Shown here piece by piece: positions 5,902-64,000 of a stretch of DNA of 64,000 nt. The position numbers and the translations under genes are program-made. The notes under the pieces are model-generated. The model saw only the letters and a list, made by a program, of their open reading frames with translations, made no database searches and was not told where the DNA came from. How positions within the stretch are numbered: the first letter of the stretch is position 1; each line of letters begins with the position of its first letter. The DNA lies in the NCBI RefSeq assembly GCF_003569045.1, contig NZ_BFCB01000002.1:620001-684000 (forward strand), in the 5' to 3' direction. The DNA is from Aggregatilinea lenta. GTDB taxonomy: Bacteria; Chloroflexota; Anaerolineae; Aggregatilineales; Aggregatilineaceae.

Positions 5902-6369
5902 CTTTCGGCAAGCTCGGTGGCAGGCATTTATACCGCACGATCCGGTCCTGGAGCCACATGCAAACGTTACCAAAACGCGCGACAGGATGATCGGGGTATG
6001 GCAGCGTCGCCGCCTACCGCCCGATCGACCCCCGCTCCCACCCCGCAGCAGGGTCCGGTGCAGCGCCCGTCGAACAGGCTCCAAACGCTCCCCGGCCACG
6101 CTCAGAGTGGGTTCATGAGCGCGCCGGAATGCTGCGCACCATGATACCCCAACCGCCCTCGCCAGAGGTAACCGGAGCGGCGTGCCCGGTGTTTGGCCCC
6201 GTCCGCGAATTATAGGAGAGGGCGCACAATCGGGCAACGCGCGCCGCGAGATTGGCCCCTGTCAGCCAAATGTCAGGCGAATGGCCTGCGCGGGTCCTGC
6301 ACAAAACTGCGTTTCGTCGCATAATGGAGACGATTGCGGATGACACACGACCTGGCAAGGGGGATGTCT
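5902..6369. other. intergenic stretch without a recognisable gene
   Basis: About 470 bp between divergent genes. Open frames exist on both strands but their translations are Arg/Pro-rich, lack a ribosome binding site and match no family I recognise. No structured RNA or repeat was seen. It must hold the promoter of the membrane protein gene at 6370. Confidence 0.5.
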
Positions 6370-7215
6370 ATGATTGCACGACTGTATAACAGTTGGGCGC
6401 TGGTCAAGGCCAGCGCGGCGGTTTTGCGCTCCGACAAGGAACTGATTCTCTTCCCGCTGGTGTCGCTCATCGCCAGCGTGATCATCACGATCACCTTCGC
6501 GGTGCCGATGGCGCTGGCGGGCCTGTTCGACGAGGCCAGCACCGGCGGCGATTTCGGCCCGGCGGGCATCGTGATCGGCTTCCTGTTCTATTTCGTGATG
6601 TACACCGTGGTGATCTTCACCAACACGGCCCTGGTCGGCGCGTCCTTGATCCGGCTGCGCGGCGGTGACCCCACCTTGCGCGACGGGTACGACATCGCCA
6701 TGTCGCACCTGTCCCAGATCCTCGGCTACGCAGCGATCTCGGCGACGGTCGGCGTCATCCTGCGCGCCATCAGCGAGCGCGGGGGGATCGTGGGCCGGAT
6801 CGTGGCGTCGCTGGTCGGCTTTGGCTGGAATCTGGCGACCTTTCTGGTCGTGCCGATCCTGGTTGTGGAGGATATCGGCCCGGTGGAGGCCATCAAGCGC
6901 AGCAGCAGTCTGCTCAAGCGCACCTGGGGCGAGCAGATCGCGGGGAACTTCAGCATCGGGCTGATCTTCGGGTTGCTCGGCCTTGCGATCATTGTGGTAA
7001 CTGCTCCCCTGATCGCGGCGGCAGCCTCGGCGGGCGCGGCCTTCGCCGTCGTGATGCTGGTCGGGCTGCTGGTAGTGGTCCTGGTCGGGCTGGGACTGGT
7101 CAGCTCCGCCCTGAACGGCATTTACGTCGCGGCGCTGTACCGCTACGCGGTCGAGGGCGAGGTCAGCGAGCAGTTCGGCTCGGAACTGATCGTGACGGCC
7201 TTCCGCCCGAAGTAA
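6370..7215 (+). CDS. DUF6159-like integral membrane protein
   Basis: 281 aa cytoplasmic membrane protein with about six transmembrane segments. The N-terminal stretch SWALVKASAAVLRSDKELIL followed by FPLVS matches the pattern I associate with DUF6159; the function of that family is not established. The start at 6370 is preferred over 6334 and 6364 because AAGGGGG lies at the proper distance of about 7 nt. The second half alternates hydrophobic helices with a short conserved-looking loop (EDIGPVEAIKRSSSLLKRTWGE). Its 3' end overlaps the convergent transposase gene by about 50 bp. It is probably a single-gene unit. Confidence 0.75.
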   Translation: MIARLYNSWALVKASAAVLRSDKELILFPLVSLIASVIITITFAVPMALAGLFDEASTGGDFGPAGIVIGFLFYFVMYTVVIFTNTALVGASLIRLRGGDPTLRDGYDIAMSHLSQILGYAAISATVGVILRAISERGGIVGRIVASLVGFGWNLATFLVVPILVVEDIGPVEAIKRSSSLLKRTWGEQIAGNFSIGLIFGLLGLAIIVVTAPLIAAAASAGAAFAVVMLVGLLVVVLVGLGLVSSALNGIYVAALYRYAVEGEVSEQFGSELIVTAFRPK

Positions 7216-7816
7216 CACCCTGCTCTGCCGTACCATCCAAGAGGCTCCCGTTTGGGAGCCTCTCTTTGTGTGATGCGGGGTTTTCCCGGTCCAGCGCCCA
7301 GTGCCGCGGGTTGAGCGCGATATAAGCGCGAATGCGGCCCAGATCGTCGTCGCCCCGGATGATGTGCTCGTAATAATTACGCTGCCACACCGGAGCGCCA
7401 GGCATGAGGCGCGTGCGGTTGATTTGTTTGGACGCATTCATTTTGAAATACCCGACAACCAGGGGCAATGTCATGGTACGGCGCCGGTAGCGAGTGTTCG
7501 GTAGGGGCAATTCATGAATTGCCCCTACGGGGCGTTCGCCGTCCTCAATCATAATGATGCCATGCACATGGTTCGGCATGATGACAAACGCATCCAGGGT
7601 GATCTGCGGGTAGCGTCCTGGCAAAGACTCCCAGGTGGTCATCACAATGCACCCCAACGCGTTCAATTCCACGTCATCATCGACCACGTCACCAAATAGG
7701 CACGCGCGTCGGTGCGTGCACATCGTGACGAAATAGGCTCCGGCCTGGCTGTAATCGTAATCACGCAGCCGGATGGAGCGGCGGTTGAAGGTTTCAAAAT
7801 GAGGCTCAGGCTCCAT
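7163..7816 (-). CDS. REP-associated tyrosine transposase (RAYT, IS200-like Y1)
   Basis: 217 aa single-strand DNA transposase of the TnpREP/RAYT branch, which in other bacteria mobilises short palindromic REP/REPIN repeats. The HUH motif is NHVHG (His83, His85), preceded by the strand AYFVTMCT; the catalytic tyrosine is in QRNYYEHIIR (Tyr148 or Tyr149). Residues 97-105 (VGAIHELPL) are encoded by a perfect 28 bp palindrome of the same family as the repeats dispersed through the window, which ties the enzyme to them. The last ~45 residues run through the neighbour's terminator hairpin and 3' end and look non-family, so the stop codon may be supplied by flanking DNA. Its start overlaps the previous gene's stop by 11 bp. 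Confidence 0.9.
   Translation of the reverse strand: MEPEPHFETFNRRSIRLRDYDYSQAGAYFVTMCTHRRACLFGDVVDDDVELNALGCIVMTTWESLPGRYPQITLDAFVIMPNHVHGIIMIEDGERPVGAIHELPLPNTRYRRRTMTLPLVVGYFKMNASKQINRTRLMPGAPVWQRNYYEHIIRGDDDLGRIRAYIALNPRHWALDRENPASHKERLPNGSLLDGTAEQGVTSGGRPSRSVPSRTAR
7241..7266. terminator. hairpin terminator between convergent genes
   Basis: GAGGCTCCC (7241-7249), loop GTTT and GGGAGCCTC (7254-7262) form a perfect 9 bp stem followed by TCTTT, 25 bp after the membrane protein stop codon. The hairpin lies inside the 3' coding end of the minus-strand transposase gene. Confidence 0.75.
7501..7528. repeat. REP palindrome inside the RAYT gene
   Basis: A perfect 28 bp palindrome with arms GTAGGGGCAATTCA and its complement, the only family member in the window with no mismatch across the whole length. 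It reads in frame as VGAIHELPL in the transposase. Confidence 0.9.
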
Positions 7817-8636
7817 ATCGATCCCGTTCCTCCTCCCCCGCCCCGGCGCGGAACGCGGCCCACAGCGCGCGCCAGAACCGACTCTCGAACCGCGCGGACG
7901 TCCCGATCCCCTGGCGCGGCAGCAGCCACGCCGCCGCGACGCCCGTGATCACCGCCCATACCAGGATCACGGACCCCACGCCGATCGCCACCGCCGCGAA
8001 CACGGCGTCGTAATCCAGCAGGCCGTAATGACCGAGCAGATTCCACCAGTCGTGGTGATCTTTGCCGAGGCCGAACAGCAGTGGCAGGTCACGCGTGCTG
8101 GCGTCGCCAATGTACGGGGCCATGTTCAGGAAGCTGTGACCGGCGAGCGCCCAGAACAGCAGCGACGTACTGATCTGGCGGCGCACGGCGAAGGCAAACA
8201 CGGCGGGCAGCACAAAGATCAGCACCTGCCAGATCGAGCCGCCCGCGAATTGCAGCGTCCAGCCGAACGGCGCGCAGATCAGGTGTCCGGCCTCGTGCGG
8301 CACGATGGTCAACGCCCACACCATCTGCGCCGTCAGGCCGGATCGCGGCGCGCGCAGGTGATCGATCCACGTCCCGGCAACCAGCAGCCAGAAGCCGGTT
8401 TCGAGCACGGCCAGCGCGGGCGCGGGATGGTTGAGGATCGCGGTGCGCAGGCCAGACGACAGCGTACCGGGCAGACGCGGCACGGACGGCGGGACGGGAT
8501 CTGGCGGTACACTGATCTCTTCCGCGAAAGTCACCAGCGCAGGCCGCCGTCTTCGCCGCGCGCGGACCTCCGTCCAGGCCCCGACTCCGATCAGCGCCAG
8601 GGCTGCCGCGATGCTCACTGCCAAAACGATGCCCAT
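7806..8636 (-). CDS. membrane protein with an HEAGH metalloprotease-like motif
   Basis: 276 aa membrane protein with about six hydrophobic segments: residues 1-22, 75-92, a helix carrying HEAGH at 114-118, then about 135-155, 160-175 and 215-240. HEAGH in a membrane helix (IVPHEAGHLI) is the zinc-binding motif type of M50-like intramembrane peptidases. A second aspartate motif typical of M50 (such as NxxPxxxxDG) is not evident, so catalytic activity is uncertain. It may be a member of a related non-proteolytic family. It ends 11 bp inside the start of the RAYT gene and is divergent from pfkA. Confidence 0.6.
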   Translation of the reverse strand: MGIVLAVSIAAALALIGVGAWTEVRARRRRRPALVTFAEEISVPPDPVPPSVPRLPGTLSSGLRTAILNHPAPALAVLETGFWLLVAGTWIDHLRAPRSGLTAQMVWALTIVPHEAGHLICAPFGWTLQFAGGSIWQVLIFVLPAVFAFAVRRQISTSLLFWALAGHSFLNMAPYIGDASTRDLPLLFGLGKDHHDWWNLLGHYGLLDYDAVFAAVAIGVGSVILVWAVITGVAAAWLLPRQGIGTSARFESRFWRALWAAFRAGAGEEERDRYGA

Positions 8637-8728
8637 CGATCCCTCTTTTTTCCGAGCGATACGCGATCATTGTGCATGGTCCCGGCACGCGGCGCAACCT
8701 GGCTCAGCAGCGACAGATCGCGCGAGCA

Positions 8729-9927: not shown

Positions 9928-9997
9928 CCATACGTATTAAGTTAAGCTTCCGAGGGGAACACAGCCTTTCGTAGGGGCGGGGCAGGCCTACCCCTAC
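9928..9997. repeat. REP palindrome with conserved 5' flank
   Basis: The palindrome 9971-9997 (arms GTAGGGG/CCCCTAC) is preceded by a flank (9928-9970, including TTAAGTTAAGC and CCGAGGGGAACACAGCC) that recurs in opposite orientation at 41368-41412 and more loosely at 29067-29121. The rest of the 380 bp gap between pfkA and the next gene holds a short degenerate repeat but no gene. Confidence 0.8.
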
Positions 9998-11837: not shown

Positions 11838-11899
11838 GTAGGGGGAGGGCTTGCCCTACTGGCTTTTTCGCCAACGGGCGGAGCAAGCTCCGCCCCTAC
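11838..11899. repeat. REPIN: two REP palindromes in inverted arrangement
   Basis: GTAGGGGGAGGGCTTGCCC at 11838 and a GGGCGGAGC...CCGCCCCTAC unit ending at 11899 flank a 16 bp spacer. The outer ends GTAGGGG/CCCCTAC are complementary, so the whole unit can fold as one long hairpin. Confidence 0.8.
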
Positions 11900-11920: not shown

Positions 11921-11966
11921 GTCTCCCCTCTCCAAGCTAGGTTGGAGAGGGGCCGGGGGTGAGGTG
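11921..11966. repeat. CTCTCCAA-palindrome intergenic repeat
   Basis: CCCCTCTCCAA, a short loop and TTGGAGAGGGG, then CCGGGGGTGAGGTG. It stands directly beside the preceding REPIN and next to the 3' end of the oxidoreductase gene. Confidence 0.75.
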
Positions 11967-14610: not shown

Positions 14611-14654
14611 TCCCCTCTCCAATCAAGTTGGAGAGGGGCCAGGGGTGTGGTCTG
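14611..14654. repeat. CTCTCCAA-palindrome intergenic repeat
   Basis: CCCCTCTCCAA-TCAAG-TTGGAGAGGGG (perfect arms), then CCAGGGGTGTGGTCTGC. It lies between the GH57 stop codon and the start of the foldase gene, two genes on the same strand, and could terminate GH57 transcription. Confidence 0.75.
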
Positions 14655-26679: not shown

Positions 26680-26750
26680 ACCTCACCCCTGGCCCCTCTC
26701 CAATCGGATTGGAGAGGGGAAAAGGGGCCGGGGGTTAAGGGGTGAGGTGA
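26680..26750. repeat. CTCTCCAA-palindrome repeat, long copy
   Basis: CCTCACCCCTGG leads into GGCCCCTCTCCAAT-CGG-ATTGGAGAGGGG, followed by GGGGCCGGGGGTTAAGGGGTGAGG. Here the flanks also form a second, outer inverted repeat (CCTCACCCC/GGGGTGAGG), making the longest copy in the window. Confidence 0.75.
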
Positions 26751-29002: not shown

Positions 29003-29066
29003 GGTAGGGGTAGGGCTTGCCCTACCCGGCTTTCCTCTTAACGGGCGGGGCTTGCCCCGCCCCTAC
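29003..29066. repeat. REPIN
   Basis: GTAGGGGTAGGGCTTGCCCT at 29003 and a GGGCGGGGCTTGCCCC...CCTAC unit ending at 29066, in inverted arrangement. Directly beyond lies a flank with CTCGGAATACTTAACTTGG, a variant of the flanks at 9928 and 41368. Confidence 0.8.
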
Positions 29067-29115: not shown

Positions 29116-29142
29116 ATGGGGCAACTCGTGCATTGCCCCTAC
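29116..29142. repeat. REP palindrome with CAATGCA-type centre
   Basis: ATGGGGCAACTCGTGCATTG onward, ending CCCCTAC. One arm starts ATGGGG instead of GTAGGGG. It resembles the copy inside the RAYT gene in its GGGGCAA/TTGCCCC shoulders. Confidence 0.65.
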
Positions 29143-29201: not shown

Positions 29202-30851
29202 CTACGATCCATCATCTTCCAGCGGCCACACCCACAGGTCGATGAAGAAGCAGTCGGTGCCCACGTCCTCGTAATTCAGCATCGCCGTGCCGACGCGTCC
29301 CGCACTCGCCTCGACCTGTTCTTCCGTGACGAGCGCGCCGTTGATGTACAGCCCCACGCGGTCGCCGTGCGCCACCACGAGCAGCACGTTCGACTCCGCG
29401 ACGACCATCTGGCTGTTCGCGTAGACGTTGAGCGTCAGCTCGTCGTCGACAGCCTGCGTCAGCCCGAAGCCGCCGGACGTGTCCGCGTAGGCCACGCTCA
29501 AATTGTGCTCGTCCACATAGCGGAAGGTCAGGCCGCACGCAACGCTCTCGCCGGTGGTGGCGATGTTAAACGTGCCGCCCAGCACGAAGTCGCCGTAAAG
29601 TGACTGGTCGGTGCCGAGCAGCTCGAAATACGAGAGCCTATCCAGCGCGCTCATCACCGCGTTGGGCACAAACAGCGTGCGCGCAGGTGCGGGCGCGATC
29701 TCGCCCGACGCGGCGATCTCGGCCACGATGCGCTGCGGATCGCGCGAGGCCCAGGTCGAAAGCACCAGCGGCAGCCCGCGATAAGTGGTCACCAGCCGCG
29801 TGGTGACGATCACGTTGTCGAACAGCACCGTCGCCGGGTCGAGCTGGTCCGCCGCCGTCGCGGCCACCACGCCGATGTACCCCGGATCGGGACGCTGGTT
29901 GTTGCTCAGCGTGCCCAGCAGCGCACCGTTGGCCCGAAACGAGAAGGCCCCGCCGCGCGCCAGCACCGCCAACGTCCAGTCCTCCGCCCCGATCAGCGCA
30001 TTGTTGGCGGTCCAGTCTTGCAGAATGCTCACCGTCGTGCCATCGTCCACGCTGACGAGCCATTGGCCCTCGGTGTTGACCTTAAACGTGTAGGCCGGGA
30101 TACGCGCACCAGCGGTTTGCGCCGCACGGAACACCAGCCCGAACTCGGCGTAGGACTGCGCACCGAACAGGTCGGCATCCACCTGCACATAAAAATCGTC
30201 CAGGGCGCTGGCGTCGCTCGGAATGGCCACGATCTGCCCGCCCGTGCGCTCCGCGCGCAGCCGCAGCCCGCCCTGCGCCAGTGACGCGAGACTCGCGCCG
30301 GGAATGATCCACGGTGATTCCGCCTCGTCGAACGTCTCGCGCCGGACCACCTGCCCGAAGCCGGGCGTCACGCTCAGCTCGTACTCGCCGGTGGTCGTGC
30401 CGTCCTCGCCCTGGTAGCGCTCGACGCGCAGCGTATACGTCCCGGCGACCGGCAGCGCGAGCGCCTCCAGCCCGGCGTCGGTCACCAGCGAATCGCGGTC
30501 GTCGTTCTGGGCGATCAGCTCGCCGCTCGGCCCCAGCACGGTCAGCGCCGGGTCGAGGTCGCCGGACACGGTGCGCGCCAGGATCGAGACGACCTCGCCC
30601 GCCTGCGCGTCAAACGTCCAGTCGTTGCCCGGCATACGGTCGGAGAGCGTACCGCGTACCGGCTCGAACAGCGCCACGTCGCCCGACGACGCCTGGGCCT
30701 GTACCAGAGACGCCGCCGGAGCCAGGACAAGCGCTCCCAGCCACGCCAGCATCAGCGCCAGTCGTGCTGCGCGACGTAGGGGCGCCGCGCCGTGCGCCCC
30801 TACGCGTGTGATGTGGAAAGCCTTCCCACTATGGTTCGTCCGTCTGTTCAT
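29202..30851 (-). CDS. secreted PPC/concanavalin-like protein with REP-coded N-terminus
   Basis: 549 aa exported protein. The signal peptide is unusually late, about residues 28-53 (LALMLAWLGALVLAPAASLV), after an N-terminal extension of which residues 17-25 (VGAHGAAPL) are encoded by a REP palindrome. The true start may be downstream, and the repeat may have inserted into the 5' end. Residues about 57-165 resemble a pre-peptidase C-terminal (PPC) beta domain (TLTVLGPSGELIAQNDD-like, GTYTLRVERYQGED). Two concanavalin-like jelly-roll domains follow (about 170-350 and 370-545). No catalytic motif is seen, so surface or glycan binding is inferred. The gene downstream of 30896 codes for a related protein on the same strand. 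Confidence 0.75.
   Translation of the reverse strand: MNRRTNHSGKAFHITRVGAHGAAPLRRAARLALMLAWLGALVLAPAASLVQAQASSGDVALFEPVRGTLSDRMPGNDWTFDAQAGEVVSILARTVSGDLDPALTVLGPSGELIAQNDDRDSLVTDAGLEALALPVAGTYTLRVERYQGEDGTTTGEYELSVTPGFGQVVRRETFDEAESPWIIPGASLASLAQGGLRLRAERTGGQIVAIPSDASALDDFYVQVDADLFGAQSYAEFGLVFRAAQTAGARIPAYTFKVNTEGQWLVSVDDGTTVSILQDWTANNALIGAEDWTLAVLARGGAFSFRANGALLGTLSNNQRPDPGYIGVVAATAADQLDPATVLFDNVIVTTRLVTTYRGLPLVLSTWASRDPQRIVAEIAASGEIAPAPARTLFVPNAVMSALDRLSYFELLGTDQSLYGDFVLGGTFNIATTGESVACGLTFRYVDEHNLSVAYADTSGGFGLTQAVDDELTLNVYANSQMVVAESNVLLVVAHGDRVGLYINGALVTEEQVEASAGRVGTAMLNYEDVGTDCFFIDLWVWPLEDDGS
30776..30803. repeat. REP palindrome within a coding sequence
   Basis: 28 bp, arms GTAGGGGCGC and GCGCCCCTAC perfect, centre imperfect. 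It reads VGAHGAAPL, the same phase as VGAIHELPL in the RAYT gene. Confidence 0.8.
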
Positions 30852-41263: not shown

Positions 41264-41302
41264 CGCGCGTTCCTTCTCACAACCAGCCGTCTGCTTTCAA
41301 GG

Positions 41303-41367
41303 TAGGGGGTAGGGCTTGCCCTACCCGGCTTTTCGCTCGGCGGGCGGGGCAAGCCCTGCCCCCTACG
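41303..41367. repeat. REPIN with conserved flank, between addA and addB
   Basis: Inverted pair of REP units (starting GTAGGGGGTAGGGCTTGCCC at 41303, ending GCCCCCTAC at 41367). Its right flank (41368-41412, CCGTGTTCCCCTCGGAAATG...TTAACTTAATGCG) is the reverse complement of the flank at 9928-9970. A degenerate CTCTCCAA-family tail (GGGGCCGGGGGATGAGGTCC) follows at about 41411. Confidence 0.8.
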
Positions 41368-50697: not shown

Positions 50698-50722
50698 GTA
50701 GGGGCGTATAGCAATACGCCCC
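50698..50722. repeat. REP palindrome between convergent genes
   Basis: GTAGGGGCGTATAGCAATAC, ending GCCCC. The CGTATAGCAATACG centre is shared with the copy at 63932. It could serve as a bidirectional terminator here. Confidence 0.7.
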
Positions 50723-50726
50723 ATCA

Positions 50727-59195: not shown

Positions 59196-59244
59196 TGTCT
59201 CCCCTCTCCAATCAAGTTGGAGAGGGGCCGACGTGAGGTCTGCT
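59196..59244. repeat. CTCTCCAA-palindrome intergenic repeat
   Basis: CCCCTCTCCAA-TCAAG-TTGGAGAGGGG with perfect arms, then CCGACGTGAGGTCTGC. Together with the REP just before it, this fills most of the gap at 59120-59440. Confidence 0.75.
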
Positions 59245-63931: not shown

Positions 63932-63956
63932 GTAGGGGCGTATGGCTATACGCCCC
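63932..63956. repeat. REP palindrome at the window end
   Basis: GTAGGGGCGTATGGCTATAC, ending GCCCC, with a centre like that of the copy at 50698. Beyond it the last ~45 bp show no gene. Confidence 0.7.
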
Positions 63957-64000
63957 AGTGGGCAAAGTTAATGGAAATCTGGCCCGTTTTGCGCGTCTTG

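Follow-up and report, generated by a model that had tools for sequence, protein, structure and literature searches.

The 64,000-nucleotide stretch of Aggregatilinea lenta DNA analysed here (the window) carries, at 7163..7816 on the minus strand, an open reading frame (ORF) of 217 residues that resembles the REP-associated tyrosine transposases (RAYTs, or TnpAREP; REP, repetitive extragenic palindrome). An earlier note on this sequence had called the gene a RAYT transposase, and its translation, alignment, family matches and predicted fold bear this out. Across 54 aligned sequences H83, H85, Q145 and Y165 are invariant; the two histidines belong to the HUH motif (codons H83-V84-H85, 7562..7570, minus strand), and Tyr165 (codon 7322..7324, minus strand) aligns with the tyrosine of the DYI motif in E. 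coli TnpAREP (4ER8), which we take to be the catalytic residue. An AlphaFold model computed with 54 sequences as input has a mean predicted local distance difference test score (pLDDT) of 79.8, and its best Foldseek match in the PDB is 4er8_A (E 1e-6), the E. coli TnpAREP bound to a REP hairpin, which places the model in the TnpAREP fold. The C-terminal tail is unconserved, the homology of most relatives stopping near residue 182, and overlaps the 3' end of a convergent ORF at 6334-7215 on the plus strand; a terminator-like hairpin stands behind that gene, at 7240-7263, inside the unconserved 3' end of the RAYT ORF. A PHROGs search with the protein matched no family, and only 2 of 72,556 plasmid records matched it, both below 40% identity.

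Within the ORF lies a perfect 28 bp double-foot REP palindrome, GTAGGGGCAATTCATGAATTGCCCCTAC (7501..7528), which is read in frame as VGAIHELPL (residues 97-105) and sits between the HUH motif and Tyr165, as the earlier note had described. It is the sole loop-free palindrome in the window with a half-length above 10, and a chance origin is ruled out by the expectation, from base composition, of about 0.0007 loop-free palindromes of half-length 14 or more in the window. Its hairpin is predicted in single-stranded DNA (z -3.9) and also in the mRNA strand, where the fold of the region has a z of -1.74 and is equalled by 14 of 200 shuffles. In the protein model residues 96-104 have a pLDDT below 50, and this linker is predicted to be disordered.

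In-frame double-foot REPs at this site were reported for TnpAY1 subclass 2.4 by Quentin, Siguier, Chandler and Fichant (2018; PMC6006769), so that the phenomenon of the in-gene REP is already published; the subclass has been equated with RAYT group 4 of Bertels et al. 2017 (as cited in PMC6006769). According to the main text of that paper, it is marked by a variable insertion between beta3 and alphaC and by the motifs NH[IFV]H and WQ, and is scattered over many phyla. The window RAYT shares the insertion site and, with NHVH and WQ, both motifs, and is an additional, slightly atypical member of the published kind that lacks flanking REPs.

The in-gene palindrome across RAYT genes

One set of relatives, the named loci, was collected with the window protein as the query, so shares within it are not those of an unbiased sample. 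Across all sets combined, 246 motif matches were reduced to 207 distinct genes, the window's included, by dropping matches with an in-frame stop between the anchors or a short upstream part, and duplicates. The linker of these genes holds a double-foot palindrome in 89, a REPIN-like arrangement of two hairpins with outer feet in 19, one long hairpin with incomplete feet in 32, a weak hairpin in 20 and none of these in 47; in the 110 loci first scanned, all 49 internal two-footed palindromes fall in the 0.45-0.7 part of the gene. The comparison of RAYT homologues that the earlier note had proposed thus finds a palindrome at the same site in many genes, and its view that the transposase gene has absorbed a REP copy stands only in part: a copy is indeed present, but it need not reflect a local event, since palindromes in this position are common throughout the subclass.

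A sample drawn evenly from the phylum adds to this. Among its 400 genomes, 96 had a match, and the 129 loci among the matches listed reduce to 85 distinct genes. A hairpin arm of at least 9 bp lies between HUH and WQ in 42 of these 85, compared with 2 of 85 for upstream coding sequence of equal length. Double-foot palindromes within genes occur in 14 NCBI phyla among the named loci, mostly in metagenome-assembled genomes, and single phylum cases may therefore be binning errors.

Cores were tabulated for 86 of the 201 genes (out of 207) that were kept for this purpose, and 49 of them are distinct. The palindrome uses reading frame 0 in 62 genes, frame 1 in 24 and frame 2 in none; in frame 2 the TAG of GTAG would stand in frame as a stop, and the ORF is therefore kept open. 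The cores are overwhelmingly self-complementary, with 582 of 601 pairs matched against 190.5 expected by shuffling. In 28 distinct copies of 28 bp (the search pattern itself fixes the feet), paired cells make up 99.1% and 3 cells are unpaired; 65 are changed on both sides (20.1 in shuffled copies), and no one-sided change occurs.

The palindrome also persists as DNA between genes with alike helices. Gene pairs were chosen by the likeness of the helix that follows the linker (residues 113-130), irrespective of core, among the 76 of the 89 double-foot genes that passed length filters. In the 166 pairs whose helices are at least 70% alike and which share 42-62% identity elsewhere, the cores lie within 2 edits in 125 and are identical in 62 (mean 1.96 edits), while identical residues share a codon in a fraction of 0.41 in the helix and 0.43 in the rest, so that silent sites are saturated. 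Where helices are less than 50% alike, cores lie within 2 edits in 8 of 1978 pairs (mean 7.8 edits). Preservation of the palindrome at saturated silent sites requires either selection or continual re-supply, and the present data do not separate the two.

Whole REPIN-like pairs, where they stand in frame in the linker (19 of the 207 genes, e.g. L057, L062, L099, L207 and L218), fit the suggestion in PMC6006769 that double-foot REPs may derive from inverted REP dimers by central deletion. In one further gene (L258) the linker has GAKN repeated 15 times in tandem, with a perfect palindrome at the end of the array; this looks as though one arm of the in-gene REP had been amplified, and the RAYT beside that gene has three such units.

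Palindrome core, flanking repeats and the predicted reading helix

The in-gene palindrome resembles the REPs that surround the same gene. At least 41 of the 89 genes with an internal copy have a flanking palindrome within 800 bp (some loci are incomplete), and in 32 of these 41 the internal core is within 2 edits of the gene's own flanking palindrome, where 2000 permutations average 3.7 and never exceed 11. Within a single genome (G093), six RAYTs have both kinds of copy with five different cores, each matching its own flanks within 1 edit. A corresponding relation holds genome-wide. The abundance test used 35 genomes, 24 of which have a classified external copy; left out were a genome with two RAYTs (G062), two variant or ambiguous cases (G064, G077), one with a variant foot that would match (G073), two with variant cores that would not (G067, G070), genomes with other cores (e.g. 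G066, G088, G097, G100, G102) and those with no internal palindrome. The class that matches the internal copy is the most abundant in 19 of the 24 genomes (tied in G078; permuted mean 5.3, maximum 14) and makes up on average 73% of the classified external copies, against 21.5% in permutations (maximum 57%). The claim of the earlier note that the palindrome belongs, in frame, to the RAYT's own REP family is upheld, and its proposed link also survives the alternative it had raised, that of an ancestral segment unrelated to the repeats, as the segment is clearly related to them.

The similarity of cores follows two short parts of the protein rather than the protein as a whole. With palindrome-coded residues masked, the helix after the linker (residues 113-130, 7427..7480, minus strand), which is predicted to read the REP in that its sequence predicts the core, gives a partial Mantel correlation with the core of 0.505 once the rest of the protein is taken into account (permuted maximum 0.096), whereas the rest given the helix yields 0.052, which is not significant. 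A second region that explains core similarity is the loop at residues 63-70, of which residues 64-70 (7607..7627, minus strand) lead from helix to strand. The HUH strand (72-90), which lies between the two, shows a correlation of only 0.02 with the core. In leave-one-out prediction with neighbours less than 70% identical elsewhere (76 genes), the nearest helix gives a core within 2 edits in 76% of cases, compared with 9% for the rest of the protein and 10% for random pairs. Prediction was also tried on 25 of the 32 genes that have a hairpin with incomplete feet, none of them among the 76 and some shared with a set of 11 genes that have flanking palindromes only; here the helix succeeds in 12 of 25, the rest in 1 of 25 and random pairs in 5%. 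At the level of single positions, the apical base 14 of the palindrome is linked to residues 69, 65 and 68, and bases 10-12 to residues 116, 119, 122 and 126-128. By MAFFT alignment, residue 122 corresponds to K82 of TnpAEc, a lysine in contact with the REP bulge in the crystal structure (PMC8266576).

In a phylogenetic tree that includes the helix, core class changes 25 times, against 53-65 times when shuffled; with residues 60-72 and 108-130 there are 18 changes (shuffled 47-57), and without them 42 (shuffled 45-56). Inheritance of the core together with the RAYT backbone is thus not upheld, and no such claim is made here, since the link to core class nearly vanishes once helix and loop are removed; correlations among the backbone segments are themselves weak (0.14-0.31), and the backbone tree may for that reason be poorly resolved. 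For the window gene, the four helices nearest to its own (L048, L052, L050 and L049, all from other lineages) accompany the same core type in the same frame, while the genes that come closest to it outside the helix have different cores.

Interpretation of the in-gene REP

The ORF is probably, judging from its sequence, a RAYT/TnpAREP of TnpAY1 subclass 2.4 (RAYT group 4), and the encoded enzyme probably has the in-frame palindrome as its cognate REP, because the core co-varies with helix and loop and because alike helices keep the core at saturated silent sites. By analogy with characterised TnpAREPs, the enzyme would bind the hairpin of single-stranded REP DNA, recognise GTAG and cut beside it, with the helix after the linker reading the upper stem and loop 63-70 the hairpin apex; activity, cleavage and mobility are all extrapolated from such relatives. 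It may in this way have spread the AATTCATGAATT-type copies found in the genome. The in-gene copy could persist because an enzyme's own REPs are repeatedly re-supplied near the source gene and are tolerated in a linker that is flexible and off the core.

Several observations weigh against this assignment. The scores for NCBIfam REP_Tyr_transpos (NF047646; E 8.5e-17, 61.4 of 80 bits) and Pfam Y1_Tnp (PF01797; 21.4 of 23 bits) fall below the curated cut-offs, which are score limits rather than biological features, and these are nevertheless the sole families listed for the protein. The tyrosine motif is YIALNP and not the YIxNNP given for subclass 2.4 in PMC6006769, which occurs in 29 of 53 relatives. 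Unlike the published members, the window locus has no flanking REP: with up to 2 mismatches allowed, none was found in 6600-8700 besides the internal copy, so that the internal palindrome is the sole REP copy there and the locus lacks the flanks of a REPtron. Presence of the palindrome turns over: of 373 gene pairs with at least 60% identity, 67 disagree on it. Among the 166 alike-helix pairs, 41 differ by more than 2 edits in the core. Of the five covariation measures, two are not striking (pairs changed on both sides, as high in 13 of 500 shuffles; further pair types, in 474 of 500). For the 11 genes with flanking palindromes only, prediction is weak, with 2 cores placed within 2 edits by the helix and 1 by the rest of the protein. 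The matched class is not the most abundant one in G085, G089, G092, G094 and the window genome. In addition, a Chamaesiphon metagenome-assembled genome (G107) has 15 AATTCATGAATT-type palindromes, and its only RAYT match (L109) has an empty linker.

How the copy came to be in the gene and why it stays there admits of other explanations. It is doubtful that it is selected as an autoregulatory hairpin, a site in the gene or mRNA that the enzyme would bind so as to limit its own synthesis. The retention of palindrome DNA between alike-helix genes, the pairing kept by double changes and the hairpins predicted for both single-stranded DNA and mRNA would all suit such a role, but in 47 of the 207 genes the site lacks a hairpin with an arm of at least 7 bp, presence turns over between close relatives, the mRNA fold is unexceptional, and in one case (L019/L175) the in-gene copy has decayed while both flanking copies are intact. 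An arrangement in which loop, linker REP and helix form a physical specificity cassette, swapped by recombination between RAYT backbones, appears unlikely. The near loss of core class from the backbone tree accords with it, as do two genes (L276 and L282) that are 85% identical yet differ in helix, core and frame; it is not favoured by the intervening HUH strand, which does not follow the core, by codon identity in alike helices, which is no higher than elsewhere, or by the weak agreement among backbone segments, which leaves the tree itself in doubt.

The earlier note had instead proposed that the window copy is a recent local insertion from the genome's own dispersed repeats. Since its helix neighbours share the core and its neighbours by the rest of the protein differ, such an insertion is neither established nor excluded by these comparisons, and it is considered improbable overall: the internal-type pattern does occur 19 times in the genome, the in-gene copy included, but four genes of other lineages, the closest to the window's by helix, carry this core type in the same position, all six genes of the core class use one frame, and the helix-including tree puts the window gene in an 8-row set with three other same-core genes (support of 96 in the Shimodaira-Hasegawa-like approximate likelihood ratio test, SH-aLRT). 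Hardly credible is the conservation of VGAIHELPL as a peptide, with the palindrome as its by-product. The peptide recurs in near relatives, but others carry unrelated ones with other cores and another frame (VGAGFKPAPT, RGVLQYAPT, RGGSRTAPT), and the segment is predicted to be disordered; peptide-level conservation is ruled out by palindromy that stays while frames and peptides differ.

For a cognate REP held in the gene by passive re-supply, the edge over selection comes from the turnover between close relatives and the many relatives that have no palindrome. A bolder version is put forward tentatively, namely that genes of the subclass carry lock and key together, the REP and then the helix that reads it, with a learnable code (upper stem, residues 114-128; apex, residues 65-69) and with the REP maintained by selection as a reference or autoregulatory site. 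If this were true, specificity and substrate would travel together in horizontal transfer and could start a new REP population in the receiving host.

That each TnpAREP has its own, co-evolving REP family is known for flanking REPs (PMC6006769, PMC2817692), and the RAYTs with cognate flanking REPs of Nunvar et al. 2010 (PMC2817692) share this co-evolution; in the accessible text of that study only flanking REPs are treated and the residues are unmapped. E. coli TnpAREP (group 2, 4ER8) and the group 3 enzymes of S. maltophilia and Marinomonas (PMC8266576) have in common with the window RAYT the HUH/Tyr fold and GTAG-tagged hairpin substrates, are described as co-evolved with their REPs, and have their DNA-binding helix alpha3 at the position that co-varies in the present subclass. 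They differ in their bulged (group 2) or short (group 3) REPs and in that cleavage has been measured for them; in the accessible parts of PMC8266576 no in-gene REP is mentioned for them, and for group 3 it is speculated there that the same helix reads the loop. Palindromic repeats are tolerated in frame within genes also among the GTAG REPs and intragenic REPs of Di Nocera et al. 2013 (PMC3733652) and the Rickettsia palindromic elements. The host genes reported in PMC3733652 are, as far as its accessible text goes, other ones, many of them for replication or repair, while here the host gene is that of the enzyme whose determinants match the repeat.

Three analyses go beyond the main text of PMC6006769: the comparison of internal with flanking cores, that of silent sites, and the covariation of the core with helix and loop. 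Covariation of the core with helix 113-130 and loop 63-70 is new beyond overall identity, as judged from the open-licence literature without supplements, and a literature search with the bare string GTAGGGGC gave no REP title among the matches listed. Protein contacts for perfectly palindromic REPs are still speculative in print, at least in the accessible account of group 3 (PMC8266576). The covariation points to two short protein regions and predicts which palindrome an enzyme reads, and this makes swap experiments simple; as many genes of the subclass carry their own cognate REP, each is a ready-made pair of enzyme and substrate. The same covariation may further help to distinguish, within a genome, REP families that are live from those that are orphaned.

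Dispersed repeats in the window and the genome

In the window the heptamer GTAGGGG/CCCCTAC is found 19 times, where 3.9 would be expected (no more than 9 in any of 100 shuffles), with exact matches at 12 places besides the in-gene palindrome. The earlier note counted twelve or more further palindromes sharing these ends. That number holds for heptamer places, but both ends lie within 28 bp at only 2 of the 12, namely a two-footed palindrome-like element of 27 bp (9971..9997, found in the heptamer scan) and a two-footed palindrome of 28 bp (30776..30803, found by the heptamer and palindrome scans and by the genome-wide pattern). The pairing of some repeats into REPIN-like units is confirmed at three of the 12 places, where the heptamer scan reveals two-hairpin units of 62-65 bp (11838..11899, with outer feet; 29004..29066; 41302..41366), and seven places have one exact end only. 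The window also has two GTATNGCNATAC-type palindromes that lack the 3' foot (50698..50725 and 63932..63959) and a degenerate element resembling the RAYT-internal type, with its 5' foot absent (29118..29142).

The genome (6.2 Mb, 98% complete) contains 83 exact GTAGGGGC-N12-GCCCCTAC sites, and the repeats are thus GTAG-footed and dispersed in many copies, as is characteristic of GTAG REPs. The RAYT-internal core pattern RATTCRYGAATY accounts for 19 of the 83 and a different core pattern, GTATNGCNATAC, for 41, a split that rules out one family for all repeats of the window; near variants such as AGTTCATGAACT fall outside both patterns. Of the earlier note's link between a single enzyme and the dispersed population, the part concerning the AATTCATGAATT-type minority stands. 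The link is limited to this minority because no RAYT matching the larger GTATTGCAATAC-type family (41 copies) was found in the window genome assembly. The only other RAYT-like or IS200-like genes found there are L177, L017 and L018. As sources of the GTATTGCAATAC family, L177 is rejected for having neither an HUH motif nor a nearby palindrome, and L017 as a TnpA whose neighbour resembles TnpB; L018 matches Pfam weakly (24.6 bits) and lies in a long open frame.

In the six scanned relatives of the same family that have no match to the window RAYT (G001, G003, G005, G013, G015 and G017), two of which (G005 and G015) do have other RAYT-like genes, not one copy of the internal type was found. Equal abundance of the repeats in relatives lacking the RAYT, which the earlier note had named as evidence against a link, is therefore not seen for this type, a result that favours the link, but the GTATTGCAATAC-type is present in four of the six (2 copies in G003, 12 in G005, 14 in G015 and 1 in G017). 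With 41, 12 and 14 copies in the window genome, G005 and G015 and no cognate RAYT found, the GTATTGCAATAC-type has the appearance of an orphaned family or of one whose enzyme was lost. The same three genomes encode an HUH-less RAYT-like protein (L177 in the window genome, L176 in G005 and L227 in G015), possibly a domesticated, inactive RAYT relative. Four copies in the window (11925-11952, 14612-14638, 26693-26719 and 59201-59227) form a second palindrome family, CCCCTCTCCAA...TTGGAGAGGGG, whose short centre is variable.
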